In this document: positions 10,572 to 26,138 of the stretch, piece after piece | Numbering within the stretch: the first letter of the stretch is position 1 | Layout: each line of letters starts with the position of its first letter | From: Streptomyces sp. RPA4-2 | GTDB lineage: Bacteria > Actinomycetota > Actinomycetes > Streptomycetales > Streptomycetaceae | Assembly: GCF_012273515.2 (NCBI RefSeq) | Contig: NZ_CP050975.2 | Coordinates: 5,642,001 to 5,706,000 of the forward strand | Direction of reading: 5' to 3' | DNA length: 64,000 nucleotides | Notes under the pieces: generated by a model | What the model was told of the DNA's origin: nothing | Seen by the model: only the letters and a program-made list of their open reading frames with translations | Databases searched by the model: none | Position numbers and translations under genes: made by a program

Positions 10572-10583
10572 CTACGCGCGTAG
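10572..10583. promoter_or_regulatory. Operator-like palindrome CTACGCGCGTAG in the add promoter
   Basis: Perfect 12-bp palindrome just upstream of a candidate -10 TACAGT (10588-10593). The same 12 bp recur upstream of deoC (21957-21968) and the PNP gene (26127-26138), and I found no other exact copy in the window. With this -10, transcription would begin at the A of the add ATG (10600), a leaderless mRNA. The protein that binds it is not known from the sequence. Confidence 0.8.
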
Positions 10584-10599
10584 GGGCTACAGTGCGCGA

Positions 10600-11754
10600 A
10601 TGACGAGCCAGATCCGGAACACCCCGAGCTCGGAACAGATCCGCCGGGCGCCCAAGGTCCTGCTGCACGATCACCTCGACGGGGGCCTGCGCCCCGGGAC
10701 GATCGTCGAACTCGCCCGGGAGAGCGGCTATTCCGGGCTCCCCGAGACCGACCCCGGCAAACTCGGCGTCTGGTTCAGGGAGGCCGCCGACTCCGGCTCC
10801 CTCGAGCGGTACCTGGAGACCTTCGCGCACACCTGCGCCGTCATGCAGACCCGTGAGGCGCTGGTGCGGGTCGCGGCCGAGTGCGCCGAGGACCTCGCCG
10901 CGGACGGGGTCGTCTACGCCGAGGTGCGTTACGCCCCCGAGCAGCATCTGGAGCGCGGGCTCACCCTCGAAGAGGTCGTGGAGGCGGTCAACGAGGGCTT
11001 CCGGGAGGGCGAGCGCCTGGCGCGGGAGAACGGTCACCGCATCCGGGTGGGCGCGCTGCTCACCGCGATGCGGCACGCGGCCCGGTCCCTGGAGATCGCC
11101 GAACTGGCCAACCGCTACCGGGACTCGGGTGTCGTCGGCTTCGACATCGCGGGGGCCGAGGCCGGCTTCCCGCCCACCCGGCACCTCGACGCGTTCGAGT
11201 ACCTCAAGCGCGAGAACAACCACTTCACCATCCACGCGGGCGAGGCCTTCGGGCTGCCGTCCATCTGGCAGGCGCTCCAGTGGTGCGGCGCGGACCGGCT
11301 CGGCCACGGCGTCCGGATCATCGACGACATCGAGGTCGCGGAGGACGGCACGGTGACGCTCGGGCGCCTCGCGTCGTACGTCCGTGACAAGCGCGTCCCG
11401 TTGGAGCTGTGCCCCAGCTCCAACCTCCAGACCGGGGCCGCCGACTCCTACGCGGAGCACCCGATCGGGTTGTTGCGGCGGTTGCACTTCCGGGCCACGG
11501 TGAACACGGACAACCGGCTCATGTCCGGGACGAGCATGAGCCGCGAATTCGAGCACCTTGTCGACGCGTTCGGTTATTCACTCGACGATCTCCAGTGGTT
11601 CTCGGTCAATGCTATGAAGTCAGCATTCATTCCTTTCGATGAACGCCTTGCGATGATCAATGACGTGATCAAGCCGGGGTATGCCGAGCTGAAGGCCGAA
11701 TGGCTGTTCCAGCAGACTGCTTCCACCAGGGGTTCCTTGGAGAATCAGGCCTGA
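10600..11754 (+). CDS. add: Adenosine deaminase
   Basis: 384 residues. Converts adenosine and deoxyadenosine to inosine and deoxyinosine, feeding the purine nucleoside phosphorylase at 25277-26101. Metal ligands in HDHLDGG (residues 24-30), the catalytic Glu in HAGEAFG, a zinc/catalytic His in GHGVRI and Asp in TVNTDNRL are all present. There is no ribosome-binding site before ATG 10600; the -10 placement suggests a leaderless transcript. Preceded by the shared palindrome described at 10572. Confidence 0.96.
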
Positions 11755-11895
11755 TCGGTGTGGCGGGGGACGGTCGGGTCTTCACGCGTTCTCCATGACT
11801 CGACCGGTTTTCGATGTTTGCGGAGTGCCGCTTTGCGTGTTTACGGTTTTGGACCGCTCACATCCCCGTCACACGGATCCAAGGACGCATTCCAT

Positions 11896-12249
11896 ATGAA
11901 GCAGTCTGCTGCCAAGACCCTCGGTGTCGCCGCTCTCGGTGCCGCTTTCGCCGCCGCCGGCGCCGGCGCCGCGAACGCGGCACCGGCCGTGCCCGACGCC
12001 TCCTCGGCGCTGGACACCGTCACCCAGGCGCTGCCCGCGCAGAGTGTGGCCAATGCGCTGCCGGGCGCGGGTCAGGCGCTTGCCCAGGGTCAGAGCGCGC
12101 TCGGTGCGGGTGTGACGGCCGCCCAGCCCGCCGCCGCGAAGGTGCTCGCGAACGGCCCCACCGCGCCGGTGGCCGGGCTGCTCGGCGGTCTGCCGCTGCA
12201 GGGCCTGCCGACGCACGGACTGCCGGTGAACGGACTGCCGCTCGGCTGA
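11896..12249 (+). CDS. Small secreted Ala/Leu/Gly-rich protein
   Basis: 117 residues: MKQSAAKTLGVAALGAAFAA signal peptide with probable cleavage after ANA (~residue 29), then a low-complexity, Cys-free region ending with a repeated G-L-P pattern (GLPLQGLP, THGLPVNGLP). It resembles the secreted protein at 18165-18710 in its signal peptide and in spaced LPAQ/LAQ, PVAG and PLG elements, so the two may be paralogues flanking the afsQ locus. Such Streptomyces proteins are sometimes labelled ATP-binding, but no nucleotide motif is visible. AAGGA lies 12 nt upstream of the ATG. Confidence 0.75.
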   Translation: MKQSAAKTLGVAALGAAFAAAGAGAANAAPAVPDASSALDTVTQALPAQSVANALPGAGQALAQGQSALGAGVTAAQPAAAKVLANGPTAPVAGLLGGLPLQGLPTHGLPVNGLPLG

Positions 12250-12293
12250 CCCACGCCGTCCGGGCTCCGGCCCGTACACGCGACGACGCGTGA

Positions 12294-12494
12294 CTACCAG
12301 GCGGTGCGGACCTCGTCCTCGGACGGGAACAGGATCCACAGCGCTATGTAGAGCAGGAACTGCGGGCCGGGCAGCAGACAGGAGAGTACGAAGATCACCC
12401 GCATCGTCGTCGCGGAGGTGCCGAAGCGCCGTGCCAGCGCTGCGCACACTCCGCCGATCATGCGGCCGTTGGTGGGGCGGGCAAGGGCGCTCAT
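12294..12494 (-). CDS. PspC-domain small membrane protein
   Basis: 66 residues with the PspC signature: NGRMIGGVCAALARRFGTS, then a hydrophobic segment MRVIFVLSCLLPGPQFLLYI and IALWILFPSEDE. Members of the phage-shock-protein C family sit in the membrane and sense envelope stress. Single gene between the secreted protein and the VanZ gene. No pspA is visible in the window. Confidence 0.85.
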   Translation of the reverse strand: MSALARPTNGRMIGGVCAALARRFGTSATTMRVIFVLSCLLPGPQFLLYIALWILFPSEDEVRTAW

Positions 12495-12587
12495 GAGGAC
12501 TCCTTCGTGAACCGTGCCTGACCGTGTGCCGGATGCCCGGCCTCGATGTCTTCAACGCTACGGTGACGAAGCGGACGAAGCGTCGCT

Positions 12588-13106
12588 CTACGGTGCGATG
12601 CCGACCCTGGGAATCGTCGGGGTCCGACCCTGAGCCGTGTCCTCCCGGGGAAGGGCCGCACGGCGCCTGGTCTCGGCCCGGCGGCGGAGACCCACCCTGG
12701 CGGCGGGCACGACCGCGACATGGGCCAGTGCCACGCCGACGGTGTTGAGCAGCAGCGAGTCGACGTCCACGACCTGCCCGGGAACACCGGTCTGCAGCAG
12801 TTCGATGCCCAGCGAGAGCAGGGCGCCGGCGGCGACCGTGCGGACCAGGGACCCGAGGGGGGAGGAGGCCGGTCTGCCACCCGCCAACGGGAGCAGAACA
12901 CCGAGCGGGGCGAGCAGCCCCAGTCCCTCGCCGATGCGGCGGGCGGCCTGCGCGGCGCCCAGGGCCAGGTCCGCCCTGATACCGGCGAACGGGCGCAGGT
13001 TCGCGGGGCTCACCCAGGGGACGTCCAGCGGCCGCAGCGTGATCCAGGCGACGAGCGCGAGATGCGCGACGAGGAGGAGAGCTCCTGCCGCACGGACGCG
13101 GATCAC
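12588..13106 (-). CDS. VanZ-like membrane protein
   Basis: 172 residues with hydrophobic segments at about 4-22, 58-75, 88-105 and 115-140. The order WITLRPLDVPWVSPANLRPF, then PLGVLLPL, then ELLQTGVPGQVVDVDSLLLN, then GVALAH matches the VanZ-like family (Q..PGR.vDvdDvl.N motif). VanZ confers low-level teicoplanin resistance in enterococci, but the role of chromosomal Streptomyces homologues is unknown. GTG 13106 chosen because the first membrane segment follows at once; the long upstream frame is Arg-rich. Confidence 0.78.
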   Translation of the reverse strand: MIRVRAAGALLLVAHLALVAWITLRPLDVPWVSPANLRPFAGIRADLALGAAQAARRIGEGLGLLAPLGVLLPLAGGRPASSPLGSLVRTVAAGALLSLGIELLQTGVPGQVVDVDSLLLNTVGVALAHVAVVPAARVGLRRRAETRRRAALPREDTAQGRTPTIPRVGIAP

Positions 13107-13287
13107 GGCGCTGCCGCCGTCTTCGCCTTGACGTTGCACGCCTCCCAAGACGCGGCGGCCGGCCGGATCGGTTCCGGCTCGGCGGCGGGCTTGGCGCACA
13201 GAGGTGAGGCGTGCGCCACACCCACGGGTCCCCGGGCCGGTCTCCCGGCTCTCCGCGGCGGCCGGGGACACACCCCTGGCCCGACGG

Positions 13288-13917
13288 TCAGGCGCCGTCG
13301 ACCGCCGTGGAGGGCGGGGCCTTCGTGCCGGGGTCGGAGCGGACGTCCGAGGTGCACTGGTAACGGCGCGGCGCAGTCGCGTCGGGGCCGCCGAGGACCA
13401 CCGAACCGTCGTCCTGCGCCGCGGCGGAGTCGGAGAAGGTGCAGACGAGCTGGGCCAGGGCCGCCGGGGTCAGCTCCCGGGGCGGGGTGCTCAGCCGGAG
13501 CGTGTCCTCCGGCTCCCCGGTGCCCCGGGGGCGGGGTCCGCTCACGGTCATACCGCCGCGCACGTCCGTCGTGTACCCCGCCTGCTGCTCCGGGGTGGAG
13601 GGCGACCCGGCGAGCTCGTCGAGGAGCCCCTGCGCCACCAGGACGCGCCGCGCGCTCTCCGTCGCGCCGTCGGGCACCCGCACGGAACGGTCGACCGTCA
13701 CCAGTTGCCCCGAGCAGAGCAGGAACACCTGCACCGGGATGCCGCGGGAGGCCTGGGTGGAGACGTCCGGGCCGGACAGGGTGCACGGGACCCGGGAGGG
13801 CGCCGGGCCGAAGTCGGTGGGGACCTGGGTGGAACGGATGCCGCAGCCCGCGAGCAGCAGCGCGAGGAGCGGGACGGCCGGCCACCGGAGCGCGCCTCGA
13901 CGTCGTACGGTCGTCAT
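13288..13917 (-). CDS. Secreted lipoprotein of the afsQ operon
   Basis: 209 residues. N-terminal basic region, hydrophobic core and lipobox LLAGC (Cys at about residue 25), then a globular region with further Cys residues (VPCTLSG, FLLCSGQLV, LVCTFSD, RYQCTSD) that may form disulfides. The ATG overlaps the afsQ2 stop (ATGA), so it is translationally coupled to the sensor kinase. Position and type match the lipoprotein encoded downstream of afsQ2 in S. coelicolor; the repeated SG(Q/P) and VDRSVRVPDG stretches recall GerMN-like lipoproteins, but that is tentative. Confidence 0.85.
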   Translation of the reverse strand: MTTVRRRGALRWPAVPLLALLLAGCGIRSTQVPTDFGPAPSRVPCTLSGPDVSTQASRGIPVQVFLLCSGQLVTVDRSVRVPDGATESARRVLVAQGLLDELAGSPSTPEQQAGYTTDVRGGMTVSGPRPRGTGEPEDTLRLSTPPRELTPAALAQLVCTFSDSAAAQDDGSVVLGGPDATAPRRYQCTSDVRSDPGTKAPPSTAVDGA

Positions 13918-15491
13918 CCGGCGCTGCCCTTCGTGGCGTTCCCGTTCCGGTTCCGCTCGCGCTCGTCGTCGGCGAGCAGTTCCGAGGCGTCCTGCGGGAG
14001 CCGGAGCGTGAAGACCGCTCCCCCCTCGGGCGCGTTCGCGGCGGTGATCTCGCCGCCGTGGATGTGCGCGTTCTCCAGGGCGATCGACAGCCCCAGGCCG
14101 CTGCCCTCGGAGCGCGGGCGCGACGCGCTCGCCTTGTAGAAGCGGTCGAAGACGTGCGGCAGGACGTCCTCGGGGATGCCCGGACCGTGGTCCTGGACCT
14201 CGATCAGGAGGTCGTCGGCCTCCTCGCGGACCGAGACACGCACCGGACTGCCGCCGTGCTTGAGCGCGTTGCCGATCAGGTTGGCCAGGATCACGTCCAG
14301 ACGGCGCGGGTCGAGACGCGCCATGATGCCGCGCTCCGCGTCCAGGTCCACCGCGTCCAGCCAGGCGCGGGCGTCGATGCAGGCGGTGATCTGGTCGGCG
14401 ATGTCCACGTCGTCGAGGACGAGCCGGGCGGTGCCCGCGTCGAAGCGGGTGACTTCCATGAGGTTCTCGACCAGGTCGTTCAGACGGCGTGTCTCACTGA
14501 CGACCAGACGCACGGCGGGCTCGATCATCGGATCGACACTGCCGGTCTCCGCGTCCAGCTCCTCCTCCAGGATCTCCGTCACCGCGGTGATCGCGGTCAG
14601 GGGCGTACGGAGTTCGTGGGACATGTCCGCCACGAAACGGCGGGACGCCTCGTCACGGGCGCTCATGTCCTCGACGCGCTTCTCCAGCGCCTCCGCCGTG
14701 TGGTTGAACGTCCGTGACAGGTCGGCGAGTTCGTCCGTCCCCGACACGCGCAGCCGGGTGTCGAGCTTGCCCTCGCCGAGGCGGCGGGCGGCGATACCGA
14801 GGCGGTGCACCGGCTTCAGGACCGTCGTCGCGGCGGCCTGCGCGAGCAGCGCCGAGCCGATCAGCGCGAGGCCGGTGGCGATACCGAGCGACCAGGCCAG
14901 CGAGTTGAGGTCCTTGGCCTCCGGCTCCAGCGACTTGAGCATGTAACCGGTCGTGGTTCCGCCGATCACCCTCGCGCCGCCCACCAGATACGGCTTGTCG
15001 TGGTCGGTGACGCGCTGCCAGTACAGGTGATAGGCCGACTTGTTGTTCGAGGAGAGCGACTGTTCCTTGTTCACCGCCTTCTGGAGGGACGCGGGCACGT
15101 CCTCCAGCGTGAAGGTGTCCAGCTCCGAATTGCCCACCACGGTCCCGCCGCTGCTGTCCCGGGCCACCAGCAGCACGCTGAAGCGCTGGCTGCTGTTCGC
15201 CATCTGCCCGGCGGCGCGCTGCAGTTCGTCCTGCGCCGGACGGACCGGCAGCAGGCTCGCGTGGTTGCGCATCTCCTGCTGGAAGTCCCGCAGCACCGCG
15301 TCCTGAGTGCGCGTCAGCACGGCCTCGCGGTTGAGCCAGTACGCGATGCCGGACGCCGACACGGCGGCGGTGAGCGCGACGAGTCCGAAGACCACGACCA
15401 GCCGCAGCCGCAGACTGGTGAAGCGCAGACCCGCCAGTATCGCCCTGCGCGCCGCGGCCCAGCCGCGGAGCTTGTCCTGCGGTGGGGTCAC
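13914..15491 (-). CDS. afsQ2: Sensor histidine kinase AfsQ2
   Basis: 525 residues. One membrane segment at about 25-48 (LRLVVVFGLVALTAAVSASG), an extracytoplasmic sensor region of about 150 residues, a second segment at about 190-213, a HAMP linker, H-box MSHELRTPLTAIT, then N box (LANLIGNALKHGG), G1/F/G2 boxes (DHGPGIPEDVLPHVFDRFY, SEGSGLGLSIA). GTG start overlaps the afsQ1 stop (GTGA) and its stop overlaps the lipoprotein ATG. In S. coelicolor AfsQ2 phosphorylates AfsQ1, and the pair links nitrogen/glutamate conditions to antibiotic production. Confidence 0.93.
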   Translation of the reverse strand: MTPPQDKLRGWAAARRAILAGLRFTSLRLRLVVVFGLVALTAAVSASGIAYWLNREAVLTRTQDAVLRDFQQEMRNHASLLPVRPAQDELQRAAGQMANSSQRFSVLLVARDSSGGTVVGNSELDTFTLEDVPASLQKAVNKEQSLSSNNKSAYHLYWQRVTDHDKPYLVGGARVIGGTTTGYMLKSLEPEAKDLNSLAWSLGIATGLALIGSALLAQAAATTVLKPVHRLGIAARRLGEGKLDTRLRVSGTDELADLSRTFNHTAEALEKRVEDMSARDEASRRFVADMSHELRTPLTAITAVTEILEEELDAETGSVDPMIEPAVRLVVSETRRLNDLVENLMEVTRFDAGTARLVLDDVDIADQITACIDARAWLDAVDLDAERGIMARLDPRRLDVILANLIGNALKHGGSPVRVSVREEADDLLIEVQDHGPGIPEDVLPHVFDRFYKASASRPRSEGSGLGLSIALENAHIHGGEITAANAPEGGAVFTLRLPQDASELLADDERERNRNGNATKGSAG

Positions 15492-16165
15492 TGAGGACTG
15501 TCCAGCCGGTAGCCGACCCCACGGACCGTACGGATGAGCGTGGGGGAGGACGGGACGTCCTCGACCTTCGCGCGCAGTCGCTGCACGCACGCGTCCACCA
15601 GACGCGAGTCGCCCAGGTAGTCGTGCTCCCAGACCAGCCGCAGCAACTGCTGGCGGGACAGCGCCTGTCCGGGACGGCGGCTCAGCTCCAGGAGCAGCCG
15701 CAGCTCGGTGGGCGTCAGTTGCAGGTCCTCGCCGTTCTTGGTGACCGTCATCGCCGCCCGGTCGATGACGAGGGAGCCGAACGTCGCCGAGTCGGTGGCC
15801 TCGCGCTCACCGCGCCGCAGCACGGCCCTGATACGGGCGTCGAGCACCCGCCCCTGCACCGGCTTGACGACATAGTCGTCGGCGCCGGACTCCAGCCCGA
15901 CCACCACGTCGATGTCGTCGCTGCGCGCGGTCAGCAGAATGATGGGCAACTGGTCCGTGCGCCGGATACGCCGGCACACCTCGAACCCGTCGATGCCGGG
16001 CAGCATCACATCCAGCACGATCAGGTCCGGCCGCTGCTCGCGCAGCAGTTTCAGACCGTCCTCGCCGGTGGCAGCGGTGGCCACACGGTGTCCCTGGCGC
16101 GTCAAAGAGAGCTCCAGGGCCGTACGGATGGCGTCGTCGTCCTCGATCAGCAACAGGGAAGGCAC
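15488..16165 (-). CDS. afsQ1: Response regulator AfsQ1
   Basis: 225 residues from GTG 16165. Receiver domain 1-115 with the acidic pocket EDDD and phospho-acceptor Asp52 (LIVLDVMLPG), Thr (LLTARSD) and Lys (DYVVKPV); OmpR/PhoB winged-helix DNA-binding domain at about 130-225. An in-frame ATG three codons earlier (16174) is possible, but the GTG start gives the S. coelicolor length and the known Asp52 numbering. There is no clear ribosome-binding site. In S. coelicolor AfsQ1 activates the divergent sigQ and antibiotic genes and represses nitrogen-assimilation genes. Confidence 0.95.
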   Translation of the reverse strand: MPSLLLIEDDDAIRTALELSLTRQGHRVATAATGEDGLKLLREQRPDLIVLDVMLPGIDGFEVCRRIRRTDQLPIILLTARSDDIDVVVGLESGADDYVVKPVQGRVLDARIRAVLRRGEREATDSATFGSLVIDRAAMTVTKNGEDLQLTPTELRLLLELSRRPGQALSRQQLLRLVWEHDYLGDSRLVDACVQRLRAKVEDVPSSPTLIRTVRGVGYRLDSPQ

Positions 16166-16281
16166 GGACGTCATTCTGGCCCATGGTGAGGGGGTCTTTC
16201 GACAGTTGGAGCGCTCCCACCCATCTCTCGCACAGAAGGGGCGCATCGGAGGGCGTCCGGGAAGCCCCGCCGTACTTCTCC

Positions 16282-16297
16282 GTGATCGCGCTGTGAC
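16282..16297 (+). promoter_or_regulatory. Candidate AfsQ1 box, distal (one mismatch)
   Basis: GTGAT-CGCGCT-GTGAC. The published AfsQ1 site is two direct repeats GTnAC separated by 6 bp; this copy matches except for T in place of C at the end of the first half. It lies 35 bp upstream of a perfect copy, in the afsQ1-sigQ intergenic region. Confidence 0.6.
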
Positions 16298-16316
16298 GCG
16301 CCGGGGGAGGGGCCCT

Positions 16317-16332
16317 GTGACAGGTCTGTGAC
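16317..16332 (+). promoter_or_regulatory. Candidate AfsQ1 box, proximal (perfect match)
   Basis: GTGAC-AGGTCT-GTGAC, an exact match to the GTnAC-n6-GTnAC consensus reported for S. coelicolor AfsQ1. It lies 141 bp upstream of the sigQ start and about 150 bp from the afsQ1 start, well placed to activate sigQ and autoregulate afsQ1. Confidence 0.82.
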
Positions 16333-16472
16333 AGTCGGCGGACACGGCCATGAAGTGGCCCGGGCAAGCTTTTCGACACAAGCAAGGAAGCACGGAGCGA
16401 GCACGGGGCCGAAGCACGACAGGCACCGGGCGCGTACGGAAGAAACCGGGATTCCACGACGGGGGGCGCGAG

Positions 16473-17249
16473 ATGGACACGCTGCACAGCACCAGTACGA
16501 GCGCAGTTGTCACGCGGCTCCACGACGTCACCCGGAGCACGGAGAAGTCCGGTGCCGTGAGCCCGCGGGGGTGCGCTCGCGGCACCGGGCGTCAGCACAC
16601 CGCGTACATGACGGTGGTTGACGGGTTCACGGGGGAGAACGCCGCGGCGGCCACCGCCACGGCAACGGCCGGCGGAGCTCACGGGGGAGCCGCGTACGGG
16701 GAGGCCACGGGGGAGCGTCGCTCGCTGTCGGAGGCGGAGTTCACCGCCTACGTCCAGGAGCGCCGCGCCTCCCTGTACGCAACCGCCTACCACCTGACGG
16801 GGGATCGGTTCGAGGCCGAGGACCTGCTGCAGAGCGCACTGTTCTCGACGTACCGGGCCTGGGAACGGATCAGTGACAAGGCCGCGGTCGGGGGCTACCT
16901 CCGTCGCACCATGACCAATCTGCACATCAGCGCGTGGCGCCGCCGCAAGCTGAACGAATACCCGACCGAGGAACTGCCGGAGACCGCCGGTGACACGGAC
17001 GCGATGCGCGGCACCGAGCTGCGCGCCGTGCTGTGGCAGGCGCTCGCCCGGTTGCCCGAACTCCAGCGCACCATGCTGGTCCTTCGTTACTACGAGGGCC
17101 GCACGGACCCGGAGATCGCGCAGATCCTCGACATCAGTGTCGGCACGGTGAAGTCGAGCATCTGGCGGTCGCTGCGCCGGATGCGCGAGGACGAGGTCCT
17201 CAGCTTCGGCCGTGACGAGGAGGAGTCCTTCGGGGAGCTCGTCGCCTGA
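16473..17249 (+). CDS. sigQ: RNA polymerase ECF sigma factor SigQ
   Basis: 258 residues (SigE/RpoE-like class). An N-terminal extension of about 85 residues (Thr/Ala/Gly rich; MDTLHSTSTS start as in S. coelicolor SigQ), then region 2 (LYATAYHLTGDRFEAEDLLQ, then GGYLRRTMTNLHISAWRRRK) and region 4 (LARLPELQRTMLVLRYYEG, then DISVGTVKSSIWRSLRRMR). ATG 16473 follows GGGGGGCGCGAG. Divergent from afsQ1 and downstream of the two AfsQ1 boxes. In S. coelicolor sigQ is AfsQ1-dependent and counteracts AfsQ effects on antibiotic production. Confidence 0.92.
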   Translation: MDTLHSTSTSAVVTRLHDVTRSTEKSGAVSPRGCARGTGRQHTAYMTVVDGFTGENAAAATATATAGGAHGGAAYGEATGERRSLSEAEFTAYVQERRASLYATAYHLTGDRFEAEDLLQSALFSTYRAWERISDKAAVGGYLRRTMTNLHISAWRRRKLNEYPTEELPETAGDTDAMRGTELRAVLWQALARLPELQRTMLVLRYYEGRTDPEIAQILDISVGTVKSSIWRSLRRMREDEVLSFGRDEEESFGELVA

Positions 17250-17337
17250 GGGTCAGCGGGGGGAAGCGGTTCGCGCGGGGAACGGTTCCGGGGGGAGCCG
17301 ACGGGGGCCCGCGGAGAACCACGGGGGGAAGCGGAAA

Positions 17338-17375
17338 AGGTCCAGGCGGACGGGGGGTCCGCCTGGACCTCTTTT
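17338..17375 (+). terminator. Intrinsic terminator after sigQ
   Basis: Perfect 14-bp stem (17338-17351 with 17357-17370), loop GGGGG, then CTTTT; the left side is preceded by AAAA, so it would work in both directions for sigQ and the convergent kinase gene. Confidence 0.92.
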
Positions 17376-17405
17376 CGTGTGCGGGCCCGGCGTGTCGCCG
17401 TGGCC

Positions 17406-18038: not shown

Positions 18039-18164
18039 GAGACACCAGTCTGACGCACCGCGCGCGCGGTGCCACCCTGCGGGTCGCCGTTGGAGCGCAC
18101 ATCACACCTCAACTACCCTTCGCATCGAACCGATTACTTTGCGCTGCAGAAGGTGGCACCCGTC

Positions 18165-18710
18165 ATGGCACGACACGCATCAGGCAAGAACCCGACCGCG
18201 CGGCGCGCGCTGCTCGCCCTGGCGACCGCGGGTGCGGCACTCGGGGCGGGCGCGGCCACGGCCGCCGCGGACACGGCCCCGGCCGTCGACGTGATGCGCT
18301 CCCGGCCCGCGTCGGCGGGCAACCTCGACCCGCAGGCGGGCGTGCAGGCGCTCAGCGGCACGCTCGGATACGTCACGGGTCCGCTCGGGAACCTCAAGCC
18401 CAACCCGCTCGCGGGCACCGGCGTGGACCCGCTCGACAACGGGATCGGCACCCAGCTGGCCGACTTCAAGCCGCTGAGCTCGCAGTCCCTGACGCGGCCG
18501 CTGGCGCAGGCGCCGTCGCTGGGCAGTGTGCCGGTGGTGGGGCAGGCGCTGGGGGTGCTGGGGGTGCGTGAGCTTCCCGCGCCCCTCGGGGGGCGCGGGG
18601 AACCCTCTCAGTACGACGAGCCCGACGCGCCCAGTGAACCGGTCGGGTGCCAGACGGTCTTCGTCTCCAGGAAGGCCGTGAGGCGCTCGATGCCGGGCGC
18701 CACCGCGTAG
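18165..18710 (+). CDS. Secreted protein, second member of the 11896 type; 3' end runs into the ALDH gene
   Basis: 181 residues. Signal peptide of about 35 residues (ARRALLALATAGAALGAGAA, cleavage after TAAA or AAA), then low-complexity secreted sequence with GPLGNLKPNPLAGTGVDPLDN and LTRPLAQAPSLGSVPVVGQALG. The last ~50 codons cross a terminator-like hairpin at 18576-18599 and then overlap the convergent aldehyde dehydrogenase gene by 103 bp; that tail is charged and unlike the rest, so an ancestral stop may have been lost. AAGGTGGCACC precedes the ATG. Confidence 0.7.
   Translation: MARHASGKNPTARRALLALATAGAALGAGAATAAADTAPAVDVMRSRPASAGNLDPQAGVQALSGTLGYVTGPLGNLKPNPLAGTGVDPLDNGIGTQLADFKPLSSQSLTRPLAQAPSLGSVPVVGQALGVLGVRELPAPLGGRGEPSQYDEPDAPSEPVGCQTVFVSRKAVRRSMPGATA
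18576..18599. terminator. Hairpin between the secreted-protein and ALDH genes
   Basis: CCCGCGCCCC pairs with GGGGCGCGGG around a TCGG loop. Such GC stems flanked by TTCCCC/GGGGAA are common bidirectional terminators in Streptomyces. It lies inside the open frame of the 18165 gene and 9 bp beyond the stop of the convergent ALDH gene. Confidence 0.7.
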
Positions 18711-19507
18711 TCCACAGGCTGTGGACGCAGAACCCGCTTCAGGTTGTCGGCCGCGGCGATCTCCAGCTCCTTCGCCAGCACGTCGTCCGCGCCCGCGAGG
18801 TCGATCGCGTTGACGTCCTGGTGCGCGGCGAGGGGAGCGGCGATCTCCGCCGTCCTGCCGGAGAGGACGTTGACGACACCGCCCGGGAGGTCGGAGGTCG
18901 CCAGCACCTCGCCGAGCGACAGCGCCGGCAGGGGGGACCTCTCGCTCGCGATCACCACGGCCGTGTTACCGGTCGCGATCACCGGGGCGATCACCGAGAC
19001 CAGGCCCAGGAACGAGGACTCCTGGGGCGCGAGGACGGTGACGACGCCGGTCGGCTCAGGGGTCGACAGGTTGAAGAACGGGCCCGCGACCGGGTTGGCC
19101 CCGCCCACGACCTGGGCGATCTTGTCGGTCCAGCCCGCGTACCAGACCCAGCGGTCGACGGCCGCGTCGACCTGGGCGGCCGCCTTCGACTTCGACAGGC
19201 CCTCCGCGTCCGCGACCTCGCGCGCGAACTGGTCGCGGCGGCCCTCCAGCATCTCGGCGACGCGGTAGAGGATCTGTCCGCGGTTGTACGCGGTCGCGCC
19301 GGACCAGCCGCCGAACGCCTTGCGCGCGGCGACCACCGCGTCACGGGCGTCCTTGCGGCTCGACTGCGGGGCGTTCGCCAGCCACTTGCCCTTCGAGTCC
19401 GTCACCTCGTACACCCGGCCGCTCTCGGAACGCGGGAACTTCCCGCCCACGTACAGCTTGTAGGTCTTGAAGACACTCAGACGCTGCTCTTCGGACTTGT
19501 CAGACAT
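18608..19507 (-). CDS. Short aldehyde dehydrogenase-family protein lacking the catalytic half
   Basis: 299 residues against ~480 for a full enzyme. The N-terminal two thirds align to the NAD-binding part (LYVGGKFPRSESGRVYEV, then RDAVVAARKAFGGWSG, then VTVLAPQESSFLGLVSVIAP, then TGNTAVVIASERSPLPAL), but the sequence ends before any catalytic Cys or the GxCC motif, and the ELGGK Glu region is missing. It overlaps the full-length enzyme gene upstream by 8 bp. Probably a non-catalytic partner or oligomer subunit of that enzyme; the intact frame and coupled start argue against decay. Confidence 0.85.
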   Translation of the reverse strand: MSDKSEEQRLSVFKTYKLYVGGKFPRSESGRVYEVTDSKGKWLANAPQSSRKDARDAVVAARKAFGGWSGATAYNRGQILYRVAEMLEGRRDQFAREVADAEGLSKSKAAAQVDAAVDRWVWYAGWTDKIAQVVGGANPVAGPFFNLSTPEPTGVVTVLAPQESSFLGLVSVIAPVIATGNTAVVIASERSPLPALSLGEVLATSDLPGGVVNVLSGRTAEIAAPLAAHQDVNAIDLAGADDVLAKELEIAAADNLKRVLRPQPVDYAVAPGIERLTAFLETKTVWHPTGSLGASGSSY

Positions 19508-20936
19508 CGAGGTACGCCTCCAGGCCGTGGCGACCGCCCTCGCGGCCGAAGCCCGACTCCTTGTACCCGCCGAACGGCGAGGTCGGGTCGAACTTGTTGA
19601 ACGTGTTGGACCAGATGACGCCCGCGCGCAGCTTGCCGGCGACGGCCAGGATCCGGGAACCCTTCTCCGTCCAGATGCCCGCCGAGAGGCCGTACTGGGA
19701 GTTGTTGGCCTTGGCGACGGCCTCGTCCGGGGTGCGGAAGGTCAGGACCGACAGCACCGGGCCGAAGATCTCGTCGCGGGCGATGGTGTGCGCCTGGGTG
19801 ACGTTGGTGAACAGCGTCGGGGCGAACCAGTATCCGGAGGAGGGCAGTTCGCAGGCCGGGGACCAGCGCTCGGCGCCCTCGGCCGCGCCCTGCTCGACGA
19901 GCGAGGTGATACGGGCCAGCTGCTCGGCGGAGTTGATCGCGCCGATGTCGGTGTTCTTGTCGAGCGGGTCGCCCAGCCGCAGGGTGGAGAGCCTGCGCTT
20001 CAGCGAGTCCAGCAGCTCGTCCTGGATCGACTCCTGGACGAGGAGCCGGCTGCCCGCGCAGCAGACCTGGCCCTGGTTGAAGAAGATCCCGGTGACGATC
20101 CCCTCGACCGCCTGGTCGATGGGGGCGTCGTCGAAGACGATGTTCGCGCCCTTGCCGCCCAGTTCGAGCGTGACCTTCTTGTCGGTGCCGGCCACCTGGC
20201 GGGCGATCGCCTTGCCGACGGCGGTGGAGCCGGTGAACGCCACCTTGTTCACGTCCGGGTGCTCGACGAGGGCCGCGCCCGCGTCGCCGTACCCGGGAAG
20301 GATGTTGACGACGCCCTTGGGCAGGCCCGCCTGGCGGCAGATGTCCGCGAAGAACAGCGCCGACAGGGGAGTGGTCTCGGCGGGCTTGAGGACGACCGTG
20401 TTGCCGGTCGCCAGCGCCGGGGCGATCTTCCACGCCAGCATCAGCAGCGGGAAGTTCCAGGGGATGACCTGGCCGGCCACGCCCAGCGGACGCGGGTTCG
20501 CGCCGAAGCCTGCGTGGTCGAGCTTGTCGGCCCAGCCCGCGTAGTAGAAGAAGTGCGCGGCGACCAGGGGGAGGTCCGCGTCGCGGGTCTCCTTGATGGG
20601 CTTCCCGTTGTCCAGCGTCTCCAGGACGGCGAGCTCGCGGGAGCGCTCCTGGATGATGCGGGCGATGCGGAAGAGGTACTTGGCGCGCTCGGAACCGGGC
20701 AGCGCCGACCACTTCTCGAAGGCCCTGCGGGCCGCCTTCACGGCGCGGTCGACGTCCTCGGCGCCCGCCCGGGCGACCTCGGAGAGGACCTCCTCCGTGC
20801 TGGGGCTGACGGTCTTGAAGACCTTGCCGTCCGCCGCCTCGGTGAACTCACCGTCGATGAACAGGCCGTACGAGGGGGCGATGTCGACGACCGAGCGCGA
20901 CTCGGGCGCCGGTGCGTACTCGAATGCAGATGCCAT
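19500..20936 (-). CDS. NAD(P)-dependent aldehyde dehydrogenase
   Basis: 478 residues, full length. Shows PWNFPLLMLAWKIAPALATG, KPAETTPLSAL, the cofactor motif FTGSTAVGK, catalytic Glu in LELGGKGANIV and catalytic Cys in NQGQVCCAGSRL, and the C-terminal PFGGYKESGFGREGG. Its start is 5 bp downstream of the deoC stop, so deoC, this gene and the short ALDH form one operon; acetaldehyde released by DeoC is the natural candidate substrate (inference). Confidence 0.93.
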   Translation of the reverse strand: MASAFEYAPAPESRSVVDIAPSYGLFIDGEFTEAADGKVFKTVSPSTEEVLSEVARAGAEDVDRAVKAARRAFEKWSALPGSERAKYLFRIARIIQERSRELAVLETLDNGKPIKETRDADLPLVAAHFFYYAGWADKLDHAGFGANPRPLGVAGQVIPWNFPLLMLAWKIAPALATGNTVVLKPAETTPLSALFFADICRQAGLPKGVVNILPGYGDAGAALVEHPDVNKVAFTGSTAVGKAIARQVAGTDKKVTLELGGKGANIVFDDAPIDQAVEGIVTGIFFNQGQVCCAGSRLLVQESIQDELLDSLKRRLSTLRLGDPLDKNTDIGAINSAEQLARITSLVEQGAAEGAERWSPACELPSSGYWFAPTLFTNVTQAHTIARDEIFGPVLSVLTFRTPDEAVAKANNSQYGLSAGIWTEKGSRILAVAGKLRAGVIWSNTFNKFDPTSPFGGYKESGFGREGGRHGLEAYLDV

Positions 20937-20941
20937 GGTGA

Positions 20942-21937
20942 TCAGTCCACCGTCACGTAGTCGGGGCCGGAGTAGCGGCCGGTGGCCAGCTTCTGACGCT
21001 GCATCAGCAGGTCGTTCAGGAGCGAGGACGCGCCGAAGCGGAACCAGTGGTTGTCCAGCCAGTCCTCGCCCGCGGTCTCGTTCACCAGGACCAGGAACTT
21101 GACGGCGTCCTTGGTGGTGCGGATACCACCGGCCGGCTTCACGCCGACCTGGACACCGGTCTGCGCGCGGAAGTCGCGGACCGCCTCCAGCATGAGCAGC
21201 GTGTTCGACGGCGTCGCGTTGACGGCCACCTTGCCGGTGGAGGTCTTGATGAAGTCCGCGCCGGCCAGCATGCCGAGCCAGGAGGCCCGCCGGATGTTGT
21301 CGTACGTCGACAGCTCGCCGGTCTCGAAGATGACCTTCAGACGGGCGGCGCCCGAGGCCTCCTTCACCGCGACGATCTCGTCGTACACCTTCAGGTAGTG
21401 GCCCGCGAGGAACGCCCCGCGGTCGATGACCATGTCGATCTCGTCGGCGCCCGCGGCGACGGCGTCCCGCACGTCGGCCAGCTTCACGCCGAGCGCGGCG
21501 CGGCCCGCCGGGAAGGCGGTGGCCACGGAGGCGACCTTCACGCCGGAGCCGGCCACGGCCTCCTTGGCGGTGGCCACCATGTCGGGATAGACGCAGACCG
21601 CGGCCGTGGCGGGCGCCGTGCGGTCGGTCGGGTCCGGGTGGACCGCCTTGACGCCGAGCGCCCGGACCTTGCCCGGGGTGTCCGCGCCTTCCAGCGTCGT
21701 CAGGTCGACCATCGAGATGGCGAGGTCGATCGCGTACGCCTTCGCGGTCGTCTTGATGGAACGGGTGCCGAGCGAGGCGGCGCGCGCCTCCAGGCCGACC
21801 GCGTCGACGCCGGGCAACCCGTGCAGGAAGCGGCGCAGGGTGCTGTCGGACGCGGTCACATCGCCGAGTGCGTGGGTGGGGGCACCACCCTGCTCGAGCG
21901 ATGTCGAGTGCTTGGGGGAGGGTGCAGTGGTGGGCAT
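20942..21937 (-). CDS. deoC: Deoxyribose-phosphate aldolase
   Basis: 331 residues. Cleaves 2-deoxyribose 5-phosphate to acetaldehyde and glyceraldehyde 3-phosphate. Class I aldolase pattern: EIDMVIDRGAFLAG, KVIFETGEL and the Schiff-base Lys in ADFIKTSTGK, then GVKPAGGIRTT. About 30-40 residues longer at the N-terminus than the 220-260-residue bacterial enzymes and of the long actinobacterial/eukaryotic type. A candidate promoter TGTACA-N17-TATGCT places the transcription start only ~6 nt from the ATG; the shared palindrome sits in its spacer. Confidence 0.95.
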   Translation of the reverse strand: MPTTAPSPKHSTSLEQGGAPTHALGDVTASDSTLRRFLHGLPGVDAVGLEARAASLGTRSIKTTAKAYAIDLAISMVDLTTLEGADTPGKVRALGVKAVHPDPTDRTAPATAAVCVYPDMVATAKEAVAGSGVKVASVATAFPAGRAALGVKLADVRDAVAAGADEIDMVIDRGAFLAGHYLKVYDEIVAVKEASGAARLKVIFETGELSTYDNIRRASWLGMLAGADFIKTSTGKVAVNATPSNTLLMLEAVRDFRAQTGVQVGVKPAGGIRTTKDAVKFLVLVNETAGEDWLDNHWFRFGASSLLNDLLMQRQKLATGRYSGPDYVTVD

Positions 21938-21956
21938 GGTCACCACCCGAGCATAT

Positions 21957-21968
21957 CTACGCGCGTAG
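21957..21968. promoter_or_regulatory. Operator-like palindrome CTACGCGCGTAG in the deoC promoter
   Basis: Same 12 bp as at add and PNP. On the minus strand it lies within the 17-bp spacer between -35 TGTACA (21978-21973) and -10 TATGCT (21955-21950), where a bound repressor would block RNA polymerase. Confidence 0.8.
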
Positions 21969-22070
21969 CGGCTGTACAGCCCCGGGGGTGGGTGTGGAAG
22001 GGACCGGGGGAACCGGCGAGGCGTCGGGGGCGGGGGAGACCGGCGCGAGCCGTCGGGCAGAATCGGGGGC

Positions 22071-22700
22071 ATGACGACGCCCGATCACCAGCCACCTCCG
22101 CCGGACGCCCCGCGCCCCGAGTCGAGGGACCGGATCTACCGGTCACCCGCCGGCCTCGCGGGCGGCGTCCTGCTGCTCGCCATCATCGGCTGGCTCGGCA
22201 TCGACGCGCTGGTCTCGGCACACGGGCGCACCCCGTGGCTGACGCTCGCCGCGATGATCCTGCTGGTTCCGCTGGTGAGCGCCTTCACGCTGCGCCCGGC
22301 CGTCTACGCGAACGAGGACCGGCTGCGCGTCCGCAACCCGTTCCGCGTCATCGTGCTGCCCTGGGGCGCGATCGCCTCGCTGCGCTCCGGCTACTCCAAC
22401 GAGGTCGTCACCACGGACGGCACCAAGTACCAGCTGTGGGCGATCCCCGTCTCGCTGCGCTCCCGCAAGCGCGTGGCCAGGCGGCAGGCGCGGGGGGCCG
22501 ACAGGCGCGGGCGGCTGGCCCCGGCAGCGCCCGCGCGCGCCCAGGCCGACCAGGCCATGGACGACCTGCGCGAGCTCGCCGAGGCGCACCCGGCCACGGA
22601 AGGGGTGCAGGGCGCGGTGAGCGTGCGCTGGGCGTACGAGGTCATGGGTCCCGCGCTCGCGGGCGCCGTGGTGCTGGCGATCCTGCTCGCGGTGGGGTGA
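22071..22700 (+). CDS. PH-domain membrane protein
   Basis: 209 residues. Two membrane segments at about 28-46 (AGLAGGVLLLAIIGWLGI) and 57-75, then a PH-like strand region (LRPAVYANEDRLRVRNPFR, then VLPWGAIASLRSGYSNEVVT, then YQLWAIPVSLRSRKR), a basic linker and a C-terminal membrane segment at about 190-207. This layout is common among small actinobacterial bacterial-PH proteins of unknown function. Divergent from the deoC operon with 133 bp between starts. Confidence 0.75.
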   Translation: MTTPDHQPPPPDAPRPESRDRIYRSPAGLAGGVLLLAIIGWLGIDALVSAHGRTPWLTLAAMILLVPLVSAFTLRPAVYANEDRLRVRNPFRVIVLPWGAIASLRSGYSNEVVTTDGTKYQLWAIPVSLRSRKRVARRQARGADRRGRLAPAAPARAQADQAMDDLRELAEAHPATEGVQGAVSVRWAYEVMGPALAGAVVLAILLAVG

Positions 22701-22830
22701 CGACGCCACCGCGGTGCAGGGTGCACGGGCGGCCGTTCGCGGGGGTGAGCGAGGGGTGGTGTTCCGGCACGGCACCTCGCCGCGTGGCCGGATCACCGAG
22801 TGCGCGCGGCCGGTATGTCACGGACGGCGT

Positions 22831-23189
22831 TCAGGGCGCGCTCGGCCACACCAGGACCATGTACGCGCCGCAGTACGCCGCCGCGTCGAGTCGGTGACGA
22901 GTACCTCCCGCATCCGCCGCGGGGTCTCGGCGCCGCCGTCCCACTCGTTGTGCCACCGGCTCTGGACGGTGAGGCTGCCGTCCCAGCGGCCGAGCGGCGA
23001 CCCCACCCGGCCGACGTACGCGAGCCGGCCCGCGGGGGCGAGGACGGCGGCCACGGGGGCCCGGGAGGAGAAGCGGTGGCGCAGGCCGAGCAGGGCCGTG
23101 ACGGTGACGGCGACCGCGACCGCGATGCCGGTGGGACGGGTCAGGCCGGCCTCCGCTTCCCGGGCTCCTGGGGCTCGGCGGTGCGCCAC
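22831..23189 (-). pseudogene. Frameshifted small membrane-protein gene
   Basis: From GTG 23189 (preceded by GAGGAAC) the frame encodes a hydrophobic segment (IAVAVAVTVTALLGL) and continues with very high third-position G+C through WHNEWDGGAETPRRMRE to VLVTDS. At about 22885-22892 the coding signal jumps by -1 to a frame ending DAAAYCGAYMVLVWPSAP and a stop at 22831. The unshifted frame instead becomes Arg-rich and ends at 22818. Either a one-base deletion or a sequencing error; function unknown. The rest of the gene-free stretch 22701-23382 shows nothing beyond this and a terminator hairpin. Confidence 0.5.
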
Positions 23190-23341
23190 CGGTAACCGTT
23201 CCTCGGTCGGGTGGCGGCGCACGGGAGCGCTGCGTCGAGTGCCGGGCGGAAATCACCCGTGAGGGCGGTAGAAGCGTGGTGCGGGGTCGTCGGCGGGCCT
23301 GCCCGGTCCTGGCGCCGTGGGCCCGCCCCGCCCTGCTCCAT

Positions 23342-23370
23342 GGGCCCACCGGGTCCCGCCCGGTGGGCCC
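23342..23370. terminator. Terminator hairpin downstream of the phosphosugar mutase gene
   Basis: Perfect 12-bp stem (23342-23353 with 23359-23370) around TCCCG, 12 bp beyond the stop of the minus-strand mutase gene. No T-run. Confidence 0.75.
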
Positions 23371-23382
23371 GCGGGGCGGGCG

Positions 23383-25020
23383 TCAGATGCCGGCCGCCGC
23401 CGACAGGTCGCGCTTGATGGCCGTGAGCAGCTCGGCGGCCTTGGCGTGGGCCGTGGCGAGTCCGGCGTGCGAGCCGACCGGGACCACGACCTCCAGGTAG
23501 CACTTCAGCTTCGGCTCCGTGCCGCTGGGGCGGACGATGACACGGGCGCCGTCCAGCGTGTAGCGCAGACCGTCCGTGGGCGGGAGCCTGTCCGTGCCCA
23601 GGGTGAGGTCCTCGGCCCGGGTGATGGGCAGGCCCGCCAGCCGGGTCGGCGGCTGTTCGCGCAGGCTGCGCATGGCGTTCGCGATCACCGAGAGGTCCTC
23701 GACACGGACGGAGAGCTGGTCCGTGGCGTGCAGGCCGTGCTCCACGGCGATGTCGTCGAGCAGGTCCAGCAGGGTGCGGCCGTCCTCCTTGAGCTGGGAG
23801 GCGAGCTCCGTGATCAGGAGGGCGGCGGTGATGCCGTCCTTGTCGCGCACCCCCTCGGGGTCGACGCAGTAGCCGAGCGCCTCCTCGTAGCCGTAGCGCA
23901 GGTCCTCCACGCGGGCGATCCACTTGAAGCCGGTCAGGGTCTCCTCGTACGCCAGACCCGCCTTCTCGGCGATCCGGCCGAGCAGGGAGGAGGAGACGAT
24001 CGACTCGGCGAAGGTGCCGCGGACTCCGCGGCCGACCAGGTGCCGGGCGAGCAGCGCGCCGACCTCGTCGCCGCGCAGCATCCGCCAGTCCGCGCCGTCC
24101 CGGCCCTTCACGGCCACCGCGCAGCGGTCCGCGTCGGGGTCGTTGGCGATGATCAGGTCGGGGTCCGTCTCACGGGCCTTCGCGAAGGCGAGGTCCATCG
24201 CGCCGGGCTCTTCCGGGTTCGGGAAGGCGACGGTGGGGAAGTCCGGGTCCGGTTCGGCCTGTTCGGCGACCAGCACGGGGGCGGGGAAGCCGGCGCGGTC
24301 GAACGCGGCGAGCAGGACGTCCTTGCCGACGCCGTGCATCGCCGTGTAGACGGTGCGGGCGGTGCGCGGGGAGCCCTCGGCGAGTACGGCGTCGGTACGG
24401 GCCAGGTAGGCGTTCAGGACGCCCTCGTCGAGGGTCTCCCAGCCGCTGTCCGGGCGCGGCACGGTGTCCAGGCGGGTGACGGCGTCGATCTCGGCCGCGA
24501 TCCCGGCGTCCGCCGGGGGGACGATCTGGGAGCCGTCGCCGAGGTACACCTTGTAGCCGTTGTCGCGGGGCGGGTTGTGGCTGGCGGTGACCTCGACGCC
24601 CGCCACGGCGCCGAGGTGCCGTATGGCGTAGGCCAGGACGGGTGTGGGGAGGGGACGGGGGAGCACGGCGGCCCGCAGGCCCGCGCCCGTCATCACCGCG
24701 GCGGTGTCGCGGGCGAAGTCGGCGGACTTGTGGCGGGCGTCGTAGCCGATGACGACGAGACCGCCGGCCTCGCCCTTGGCCTTGAGGTACGTGGCCAGAC
24801 CGGCGGCGGCGCGGATGACCACCGCGCGGTTCATGCGCATCGGGCCCGCGCCGAGTTCGCCCCGCAGGCCCGCGGTGCCGAACTGGAGGGTGCCGCTGAA
24901 GCGTGCGGTGAGCTCGGCGACGTCCTGGGCGTCGATGAGCTTGGCGAGTTCCTCACGGGTCTCCGCGTCGGGGTCCTCGGCCAGCCACGCCTCGGCCCGT
25001 GCGATGAGTTCGTCCTGCAC
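23383..25020 (-). CDS. Phospho-sugar mutase of the PGM2/phosphopentomutase type
   Basis: 545 residues, the length of the PGM2-like branch of alpha-D-phosphohexomutases. Active-site Ser loop TASHNPPRDNGYK, metal loop DPDADRCAV, sugar loop GEEVG-like RGDEVGALLARH, and phosphate-binding RPSGTEPKLKCYLE near the C-terminus. Usually annotated phosphomannomutase, but PGM2-type enzymes include phosphopentomutases; lying between deoC and PNP, with no deoB visible, it may convert (deoxy)ribose 1-phosphate to the 5-phosphate. GTG 25020 has AGAGAGGT upstream. The 256 bp before it (25021-25276) hold only GC-rich intergenic sequence. Confidence 0.88.
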   Translation of the reverse strand: MQDELIARAEAWLAEDPDAETREELAKLIDAQDVAELTARFSGTLQFGTAGLRGELGAGPMRMNRAVVIRAAAGLATYLKAKGEAGGLVVIGYDARHKSADFARDTAAVMTGAGLRAAVLPRPLPTPVLAYAIRHLGAVAGVEVTASHNPPRDNGYKVYLGDGSQIVPPADAGIAAEIDAVTRLDTVPRPDSGWETLDEGVLNAYLARTDAVLAEGSPRTARTVYTAMHGVGKDVLLAAFDRAGFPAPVLVAEQAEPDPDFPTVAFPNPEEPGAMDLAFAKARETDPDLIIANDPDADRCAVAVKGRDGADWRMLRGDEVGALLARHLVGRGVRGTFAESIVSSSLLGRIAEKAGLAYEETLTGFKWIARVEDLRYGYEEALGYCVDPEGVRDKDGITAALLITELASQLKEDGRTLLDLLDDIAVEHGLHATDQLSVRVEDLSVIANAMRSLREQPPTRLAGLPITRAEDLTLGTDRLPPTDGLRYTLDGARVIVRPSGTEPKLKCYLEVVVPVGSHAGLATAHAKAAELLTAIKRDLSAAAGI

Positions 25021-25276
25021 GTCGGGTGTACCTCTCTGTCTGTGGTGCCTTGCTGTATACCCGGCCGCGGTGGGCTTACCGCACCCCCGCCGTTCCTGCC
25101 GGTCCGCCCCTACCGGTCCCGTCCTCGGGGCTGCCGCCCCGGACCCCGCCTCCGCCTGGACGGCCGTCCTCGAACGCCGGACGGGCCGGGTCACCTGGGG
25201 GCGCGGGGAACCGCGCGACCCGTCCCCACCCACCCGCGGCCGTACGGCGACACCGGGGGACCGGAGCGCGCGATCC

Positions 25277-26101
25277 CTACAGCCGGTCCAGGACCTGGGT
25301 GAGCAGCGCTCCCATACGGGTCGCGGAGTCACGGCCCGCCTGGAGGACCTCCTCGTGGTTCAGCGGCTCGCCCGTCATACCTGCGGCGAGGTTGGTGACG
25401 AGGGAGATGCCCAGCACCTCCGCCCCGGCCTCGCGCGCGGCGATGGCCTCGAGCACCGTCGACATGCCGACGAGGTCCGCCCCGATGGTGCGGGCCATCC
25501 GGATCTCGGCGGGCGTCTCGTAGTGCGGCCCGGTGAACTGCGCGTAGACGCCCTCCTCCAGGCTGGGGTCCACCTCCTTGCAGAGGGCGCGCAGACGCGG
25601 GGAGTAGAGGTCGGTGAGGTCGACGAAGTTCGCCCCGACGATGGGGGAGGTCGCCGTCAGGTTGATGTGGTCGCTGATCAGCACCGGCTGACCGGGACGC
25701 ATGTCCGCGCGCAGGCCACCGCAGCCGTTGGTGAGCACGAGGGTCTTGCAGCCGGCGGCGACGGCCGTACGGACACCGTGCGCGACGGCGGCGACCCCGC
25801 GGCCCTCGTAGTAGTGGGTGCGGCCCAGGAAGACCAGGGCCCGCTTGTCGCCGATCAGGTACGAGCGGACCTTGCCGCCGTGGCCCTCGACCGCGGGCGG
25901 GGGGAACCCGGGCAGCTCGGTGACCTGGAACTCGGCCTCGGGGGTGCCGAGGGCGTCCGCGGCCGGAGCCCAGCCGGAGCCCATCACGAGCGCGACGTCG
26001 TGGGTCTCGGCGCCCGTGAGCTCCCGCAGGCGGGTGGCGGCGGCGTCGGCAGCGGCGTAGGGGTCGCCCTGGATGTCGTCCGGAAGAAGAGATGCGTTCA
26101 C
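25277..26101 (-). CDS. Purine nucleoside phosphorylase
   Basis: 274 residues from GTG 26101 ([14 protein letters not shown]). Trimeric class PNP: phosphate-binding [25 protein letters not shown], the base-site stretch [19 protein letters not shown], and [17 protein letters not shown]. Converts inosine/guanosine or their deoxy forms to base plus (deoxy)ribose 1-phosphate. An ATG two codons earlier (26107) overlaps the candidate -10 TACCCT; with that -10 the transcript would begin at 26102, so the GTG start is essentially leaderless. Follows the shared palindrome. Confidence 0.93.
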
Positions 26102-26126
26102 GCGCATGAGGGTAGCCGGTCCGGGC

Positions 26127-26138
26127 CTACGCGCGTAG
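26127..26138. promoter_or_regulatory. Operator-like palindrome CTACGCGCGTAG in the PNP promoter
   Basis: Third exact copy. It overlaps the expected -35 position for the candidate -10 TACCCT (26114-26109) on the minus strand, 26 bp upstream of the GTG. Confidence 0.8.

Follow-up and report, generated by a model that had tools for sequence, protein, structure and literature searches.

Repressor regulons for nucleosides are already known in bacteria. In Escherichia coli, DeoR acts as a repressor over deoC, a nucleoside phosphorylase and nucleoside transport, through an operator whose sequence differs from the one described here, and the DeoR of Bacillus subtilis is said to control dra-nupC-pdp. 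Here we describe a 12-bp palindrome, CTACGCGCGTAG, found in a 64-kb window (the whole stretch of 64,000 nucleotides that was analyzed) of the Streptomyces sp. RPA4-2 genome. Judging from sequence comparison, it is very probably the operator of a single repressor governing nucleic-acid scavenging in the Streptomycetaceae. As expected of a DeoR-kind regulon, it is common to the deoC, nucleoside phosphorylase and importer promoters, and the candidate regulator, encoded nearby, has the HTH_DeoR plus DeoRC architecture, with the DeoR of E. coli as its sole match in the PDB. What sets it apart from both DeoR systems is that the putative regulon would extend to apparently exported nucleases and nucleotidases.

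A study of extracellular DNA use in Vibrio cholerae describes this same series of steps, from secreted nucleases through exported nucleotidases to nucleoside uptake (Xds, Dns, UshA, CpdB, PhoX and NupC; PMC4723616). According to that study, control in V. cholerae is split: nucleases answer to low phosphate, HapR acts on Dns, and CytR and CRP act on uptake (PMC4723616), whereas here a single putative operator lies over the whole series. NupR of Bacillus thuringiensis likewise regulates nucleoside transport but is reported to be a GntR/HutC-family protein with zinc as effector (PMC9430930). A single operator reaching from a secreted nuclease to deoC was not found described in titles and abstract openings, a search that left aside subscription papers and RegPrecise, and a literature text search for the 12-mer and its 10-base core gave no occurrence under a title suggesting Streptomyces regulation. 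That reach is what would be new in the present proposal. If it holds, it would offer a direct handle on DNA reuse by Streptomyces, perhaps including that of its own dying mycelium, would make an operator and a candidate regulator available for engineering, and would give the exported enzymes likely roles through co-regulation.

An exact search located the palindrome at 10572-10583, 21957-21968 and 26127-26138 and nowhere else in the window, just as the first-pass annotation had claimed. A first-order Markov model trained on the window and 20 kb of its left flank predicts 0.0027 exact copies for a 64-kb stretch and 0.42 for the full genome of 9.86 Mb, in which four are observed and a reversed-reading control pattern occurs once. 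The fourth copy lies 1.5 kb left of the window, at G000:C1:5640453-5640464 (G000 is the source genome, other G numbers are comparison genomes and L numbers are fetched loci), between a BMP lipoprotein gene and the importer ABC (ATP-binding cassette) ATPase gene. The annotation had predicted that the importer operon, whose promoter lies left of the window, would belong to the regulon; this was borne out in the source genome, although the site is often missing at the ATPase gene in other genera. It had also held that copies frequent across the genome and unrelated to nucleosides would speak against an operator; instead, all four exact copies lie at genes of nucleoside transport or breakdown. Each copy reads ATCTACGCGCGTAG in a single orientation only, with the AT flank on exactly one side of the palindrome. 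When two mismatches were allowed, the window held five sites against 4.75 expected from shuffled sequence, with no enrichment, and the window signal therefore resides in the exact matches. Scanning the genome for the 16-base form with up to three mismatches gave 22 places, the four exact ones included, compared to 7 for the reversed-reading pattern.

The three genes behind the window copies were identified as the annotation had named them, by domain searches and by NCBIfam matches above cut-off, and the sites lie between or on the promoter elements, as it had also stated; the hexamers are our reading of the sequence. At the adenosine deaminase gene add (10600..11754, plus strand; A_deaminase, NF006847 at 646.6 bits against a cut-off of 412), the putative operator at 10572..10583 reads ATCTACGCGCGTAGGG and stands directly upstream of a −10-like TACAGT. 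The start codon follows only 6 bases after this hexamer, which suggests that the add transcript is leaderless. The deoxyribose-phosphate aldolase gene deoC (20942..21937, minus strand; DeoC, TIGR00126 at 174.3 bits against 117.3) has its putative operator at 21957..21968, read on the minus strand, within the 17-bp spacer from TGTACA to TATGCT. For the purine-nucleoside phosphorylase (PNP) gene (25277..26107, minus strand; PNP_UDP_1, TIGR01698 at 344.3 bits against 302.6), the putative operator at 26127..26138, also read on the minus strand, covers the expected −35 region upstream of TACCCT.

The palindrome is conserved well beyond the source genome. Same-genus genomes hold 143 exact copies in 37 of 37 (source included), three to six in each, against 27 for the reversed-reading pattern. 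The same sample includes 24 genomes from other families, of which 21 lack an exact copy and the remaining three carry a single one. Within the family, 199 of 200 genomes from 17 genera carry at least one exact copy. Since a single exact copy per genome is within chance, the context of the single copies matters: they lie at add in G061, G064 and G079, at deoC in G063 and at PNP in G081. The sole family genome without an exact copy, G069, has sites with one or two mismatches at add, deoC and PNP. We also fetched 80 named loci by the DeoR-family protein encoded in the window (Streptomyces, one Kitasatospora and one labelled Actinobacteria bacterium; 1.42 Mb in total). The PNP-position site is exact in 78 of them; in the remaining two the upstream sequence extends for no more than ~2.35 kb, so that the PNP site may fall beyond the contig. 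A second exact copy occurs at a deoC-like distance in 53 of the 80, and on alignment 52 of these share the deoC start region, the remaining one being too close to the locus end; the sole one-mismatch copy, in L114, is at a deoC-like distance as well. Altogether these loci hold 131 exact copies, while 119 control palindromes average 0.1 with a maximum of 2. Finally, in 12 genomes of other genera the add, deoC and PNP sites are present with zero to two mismatches wherever the gene start lies within the fetched stretch (the deoC row of G068, whose gene start is outside the stretch, is an artefact and was left out of the count), and CTACGCGTGTAG-like variants recur at deoC in other genera. Lack of conservation in relatives, which the annotation had likewise named as evidence against its idea, was thus not what these loci displayed. 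One survey of copies covered 50 copies from 13 of the 18 same-genus genomes listed, leaving out G000, G008, G011, G017 and G024; gene calls came from a simple GC-frame score, and some starts are therefore too long.

Conservation of the site or its near variants extends beyond add, PNP and deoC to the promoters, or initial codons, of exported-looking nucleases and nucleotidases and of BMP lipoprotein genes. The operator-defined nucleoside regulon of the first-pass annotation is therefore supported but appears to have been drawn too small. In the source genome, near matches were found at three nucleotidases, an Endonuclease_1 nuclease, an Exo_endo_phos nuclease (two sites) and a GmrSD_C-type nuclease; all six look exported, as read from their N-termini and families. 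We compared the ortholog loci of these genes with 119 permuted palindromes as controls. A site with at most two mismatches is present in 27 of 28 5'-nucleotidase loci (control maximum 13), 20 of 23 Endonuclease_1 loci (6), 27 of 30 Exo_endo_phos loci (13), 28 of 29 GmrSD_C-type loci (3) and all 23 UshA-like nucleotidase loci (8), and no control palindrome equalled the target counts for these five gene sets. The nucleotidase set comprises 28 of 30 loci, two UshA-like ones having been removed by an E-value filter and moved to the UshA-like set, which holds 23 of the 33 weak matches listed (20 fetched, two stored earlier and the source genome's own). Two distant matches were removed from the Endonuclease_1 set (23 of 25 loci) and one truncated locus from the GmrSD_C-type set (29 of 30), and the Exo_endo_phos set has 30 of the 33 matches listed. 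A further set, nt5b, has the site in both of its loci and is not discriminating, as one control palindrome equalled the target; three more paralogs are outside this set. In the GmrSD_C-type gene the site is located within the first codons. Three codons there retain their third base in 78 of 79 cases, while conserved residues elsewhere in the gene do so in 3226 of 4055 (80%). This retention points to a constraint on the DNA.

Left of the window, the BMP lipoprotein genes bmp1 and bmp2 both bear CTACGCGCGTTA, which merges with a −10-like hexamer and which, together with CTACGCGCGTTG, is among the forms we regard as variants of the perfect site. All four other-genus genomes having a bmp1 match (G063, G070, G071 and G066) carry CTACGCGCGTTA at that gene; these four and the source-genome sites make up the unbiased bmp evidence. 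Most other bmp rows come from loci fetched by CTACGCGCGTTA itself and are hence not independent, and the bmp2 rows are unreliable because the reference begins ahead of the site; we read the true start as ~68 bp downstream of it. The negative control, purN, had a site with at most two mismatches in 0 of 30 genus loci; it is an imperfect control, as one control palindrome reached 18 of 30 there. Its membership as part of a de novo purine regulon was rejected for the genus on this count; in two genomes of other genera, exact intergenic copies lie upstream of purN-purH (G073 and G074; L214 near 7929, L219 near 7691).

Several observations weigh against a single operator read by the linked DeoR-family protein. 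The site is missing at three Endonuclease_1, three Exo_endo_phos, one GmrSD_C-type and one nucleotidase loci, and 8 of the 22 near-match places in the source genome have no visible nucleic-acid link. The ABC ATPase site does not hold throughout. Among other-genus genomes read without selection for the pattern there, G066 has it exact, but close orthologs in G063, G070 and G071 lack it (4-5 mismatches), as do distant ones in G061, G064 and G077. In G063, G070 and G071 it is bmp1, directly upstream of the ATPase gene, that bears the variant CTACGCGCGTTA instead. In other genomes, some of the exact copies away from the cluster resemble chance. The deoR promoter has no copy with zero or one mismatch in the 80 loci, on which ground autoregulation was rejected. 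Linkage is not unique to DeoR, since all 12 deep-genus regions contain a histidine kinase, a response regulator and a sigma factor, and 11 contain DeoR (in G068 it lies just outside the stretch). Lastly, the match between DeoR and operator across taxa is weak because it amounts to a single family-level event.

Still, the repressor is probably the DeoR-family protein encoded at 28362..29324 on the plus strand, 2.2 kb from the PNP site. It combines HTH_DeoR (PF08220, 53.6 bits) and DeoRC (PF00455, 168.5 bits), and a PDB sequence search at E 0.001 gave a single match, over the effector part, to the deoxyribose operon repressor of E. coli (7l6l, 35.1 bits). The protein falls below the cut-off of every NCBIfam model among the matches listed, including NF007961 for the E. 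coli DeoR repressor (74.1 bits against 244) and the best-scoring model, NF040755 for E. coli AgaR (184.9 against 260). All 22 family genomes compared from other genera (16 genera) carry an ortholog of at least 405 bits, and none was found in 16 genomes outside the family, where the best match has about 146 bits. Across the 22 genomes, residues 1-60 are 99.8% identical, compared to 94-87% for the sensor and 57-44% for the tail, and the pair of operator and regulator appears near-frozen across the whole family. The S. coelicolor ortholog is, we presume, SCO4920. In two studies, SCO4920 is the centre of an inferred module including bldN (PMC3224704) and is among the regulators tabulated in work on carbon catabolite control (PMC4848846); the word "nucleoside" is absent from the main text of both.

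Proteins of the LacI and GntR families would likewise fit a compact palindrome centered on CG. The most serious competing explanation is that the operator is real but read by another regulator, such as a member of one of these families encoded in a different part of the genome; we regard it as unlikely yet worth keeping in view. DeoR is without an operator of its own, and our comparison was among the linked regulators; in B. thuringiensis, the GntR/HutC protein NupR is reported to govern nucleoside permeases (PMC9430930). On the other hand, of the linked regulators compared, it is DeoR whose DNA-binding domain varies least (identity 0.998, against 0.963 for the response regulator, 0.904/0.856 for sigma and 0.651 for LysR), and the closest relative of DeoR with a solved structure is a deoxyribose repressor.

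Under the proposal of a DeoR-type repressor, a dimer would bind over or beside the core promoter and block RNA polymerase, to be released as a nucleoside breakdown product, probably a pentose phosphate, accumulates. The best reading of the whole set is that the putative operator spans the route from extracellular DNA through nucleoside import to central carbon. Its placement varies from the deoC spacer to just before the −10 of add, over the expected −35 of PNP, on the −10 of bmp1 and bmp2, and into the first codons of a nuclease gene, and such variation relative to the core promoter is compatible with a polymerase-blocking repressor. An activator bound at the site would need a steadier position and is improbable. 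In its favor, the expected −35 region of PNP lies under the site and shows no good −35 hexamer; however, the deoC site fills the spacer of a good promoter, the bmp1 and bmp2 sites merge with the −10, and the GmrSD_C-type site is in the first codons.

The linked two-component system (histidine kinase and response regulator, 13914-16585) is a still weaker contender as reader of the site, and we consider it very unlikely, even though both genes are found in all 12 deep-genus regions and the DNA-binding domain of the response regulator is 96.3% identical. Response regulators of the OmpR type usually bind direct repeats, whereas most cytosolic genes here have a perfect palindrome, and an outside signal is not demanded by the logic of the pathway. 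As a separate observation, a sigma factor, probably of the extracytoplasmic function type, accompanies the pair (13914-17249), and all three genes are kept in the 12 deep-genus regions. Chance or a compositional artefact, for which the window count at two mismatches or fewer could be cited since it equals the shuffled expectation, is practically negligible, being contradicted by the exact count, the positions and the conservation and refuted by the control palindromes and the purN control.

Returning to a single repressor, we tentatively propose, with somewhat less than even confidence, that it runs a graded program set by operator quality. In the source genome the perfect palindrome is present at four of four cytosolic or importer-operon sites and at none of the eight genes for exported or surface proteins, namely three nucleotidases, three nucleases and two lipoproteins. 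Over distinct contexts, with identical 32-base contexts merged, the site is perfect in 90 of 96 for PNP, 14 of 15 for add, 24 of 34 for deoC and 9 of 12 for abcA; many of these contexts were fetched by the palindrome itself, which does not apply to the 78 of 80 PNP loci. Among the exported-enzyme loci, 0 of 135 are perfect and 127 have a site with one or two mismatches. The bases lost in the exported-gene sites are mostly the outer two of one half, and Endonuclease_1 also varies at an inner base. Such degraded half-sites could set different repression strengths. Perfect or near-perfect palindromes would hold the cytosolic pathway and, in the source genome, the operon of the ABC importer. The apparently exported nucleases and nucleotidases and the BMP receptors, with a copy degraded on one side, would form a scouting layer that leaks or is induced first, the catabolic layer following later.

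The window opens with the 3' end of the ATPase gene of a nucleoside-type importer (1..154, plus strand; PF00005), whose own putative operator is the fourth exact copy. It is followed on the same strand by a permease found by domain search (BPD_transp_2; 151..1281), a second permease assigned by position and by operon layout in other genomes (1278..2540), a cytidine deaminase, cdd (2537..2980; PF00383), and a deoA-type pyrimidine nucleoside phosphorylase (3062..4345; PF00591, PF07831 and PF02885), the last two probably within the importer operon. Downstream of deoC on the minus strand lie an aldehyde dehydrogenase (19500..20936), probably in the same operon, and a second, shorter one that overlaps it (18608..19507); both would fit the disposal of the acetaldehyde made by DeoC. 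The PGM_PMM mutase downstream of PNP (23383..25332, minus strand) may serve as a phosphopentomutase. A second adenosine deaminase in G007, G033 and G026 (L021, L022 and L023, near base 10001) has the exact palindrome in its first codons, directly after the ATG.

Not every further copy has an evident target. Some exact copies outside the cluster in G011, G077, G106 and others are without a plausible one, a single copy in G037 has no reference genes nearby and was taken as chance, and so were the same-order copies in G041 and G042, which fall inside a coding sequence whose translation resembles IMP dehydrogenase by eye. In two genera, genes for oligopeptide-type binding proteins have an exact copy upstream (L019 near 9997, L201 near 7764), which may be chance or a further branch. 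Four other kinds of site stand outside the ortholog tests. Three of them are near matches in the source genome: ATCTCCGCGCGTAGAC in L316 near base 2036 (G000:C1:4217528), ~160 bp upstream of the likely start of a base permease of the Xan_ur_permease family; a site between purSQL and lsr2 in L319 near base 1942 (G000:C1:4486934); and a site 39 bp upstream of a carbon-nitrogen hydrolase gene (CN_hydrolase), itself followed by a class-III aminotransferase, in L309 near base 2264 (G000:C1:7146256), a pair possibly involved in pyrimidine breakdown. The fourth concerns an apparently exported protein of unassigned function, which we call LFDN-type (LFDN..ETAGNADWIISTS). It has no confident family match and no PDB sequence match up to E 1, and its structure, predicted from a three-row alignment with a mean pLDDT (predicted local distance difference test) of 41.5, is too poor for a fold search. 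Operator-like sites lie upstream of its gene in three genomes (L317:451-1896, minus strand; L020:10070-11503, plus strand; L204:5699-7417, minus strand), and through this placement the putative regulon points to the LFDN-type family as a candidate new nucleic-acid enzyme.

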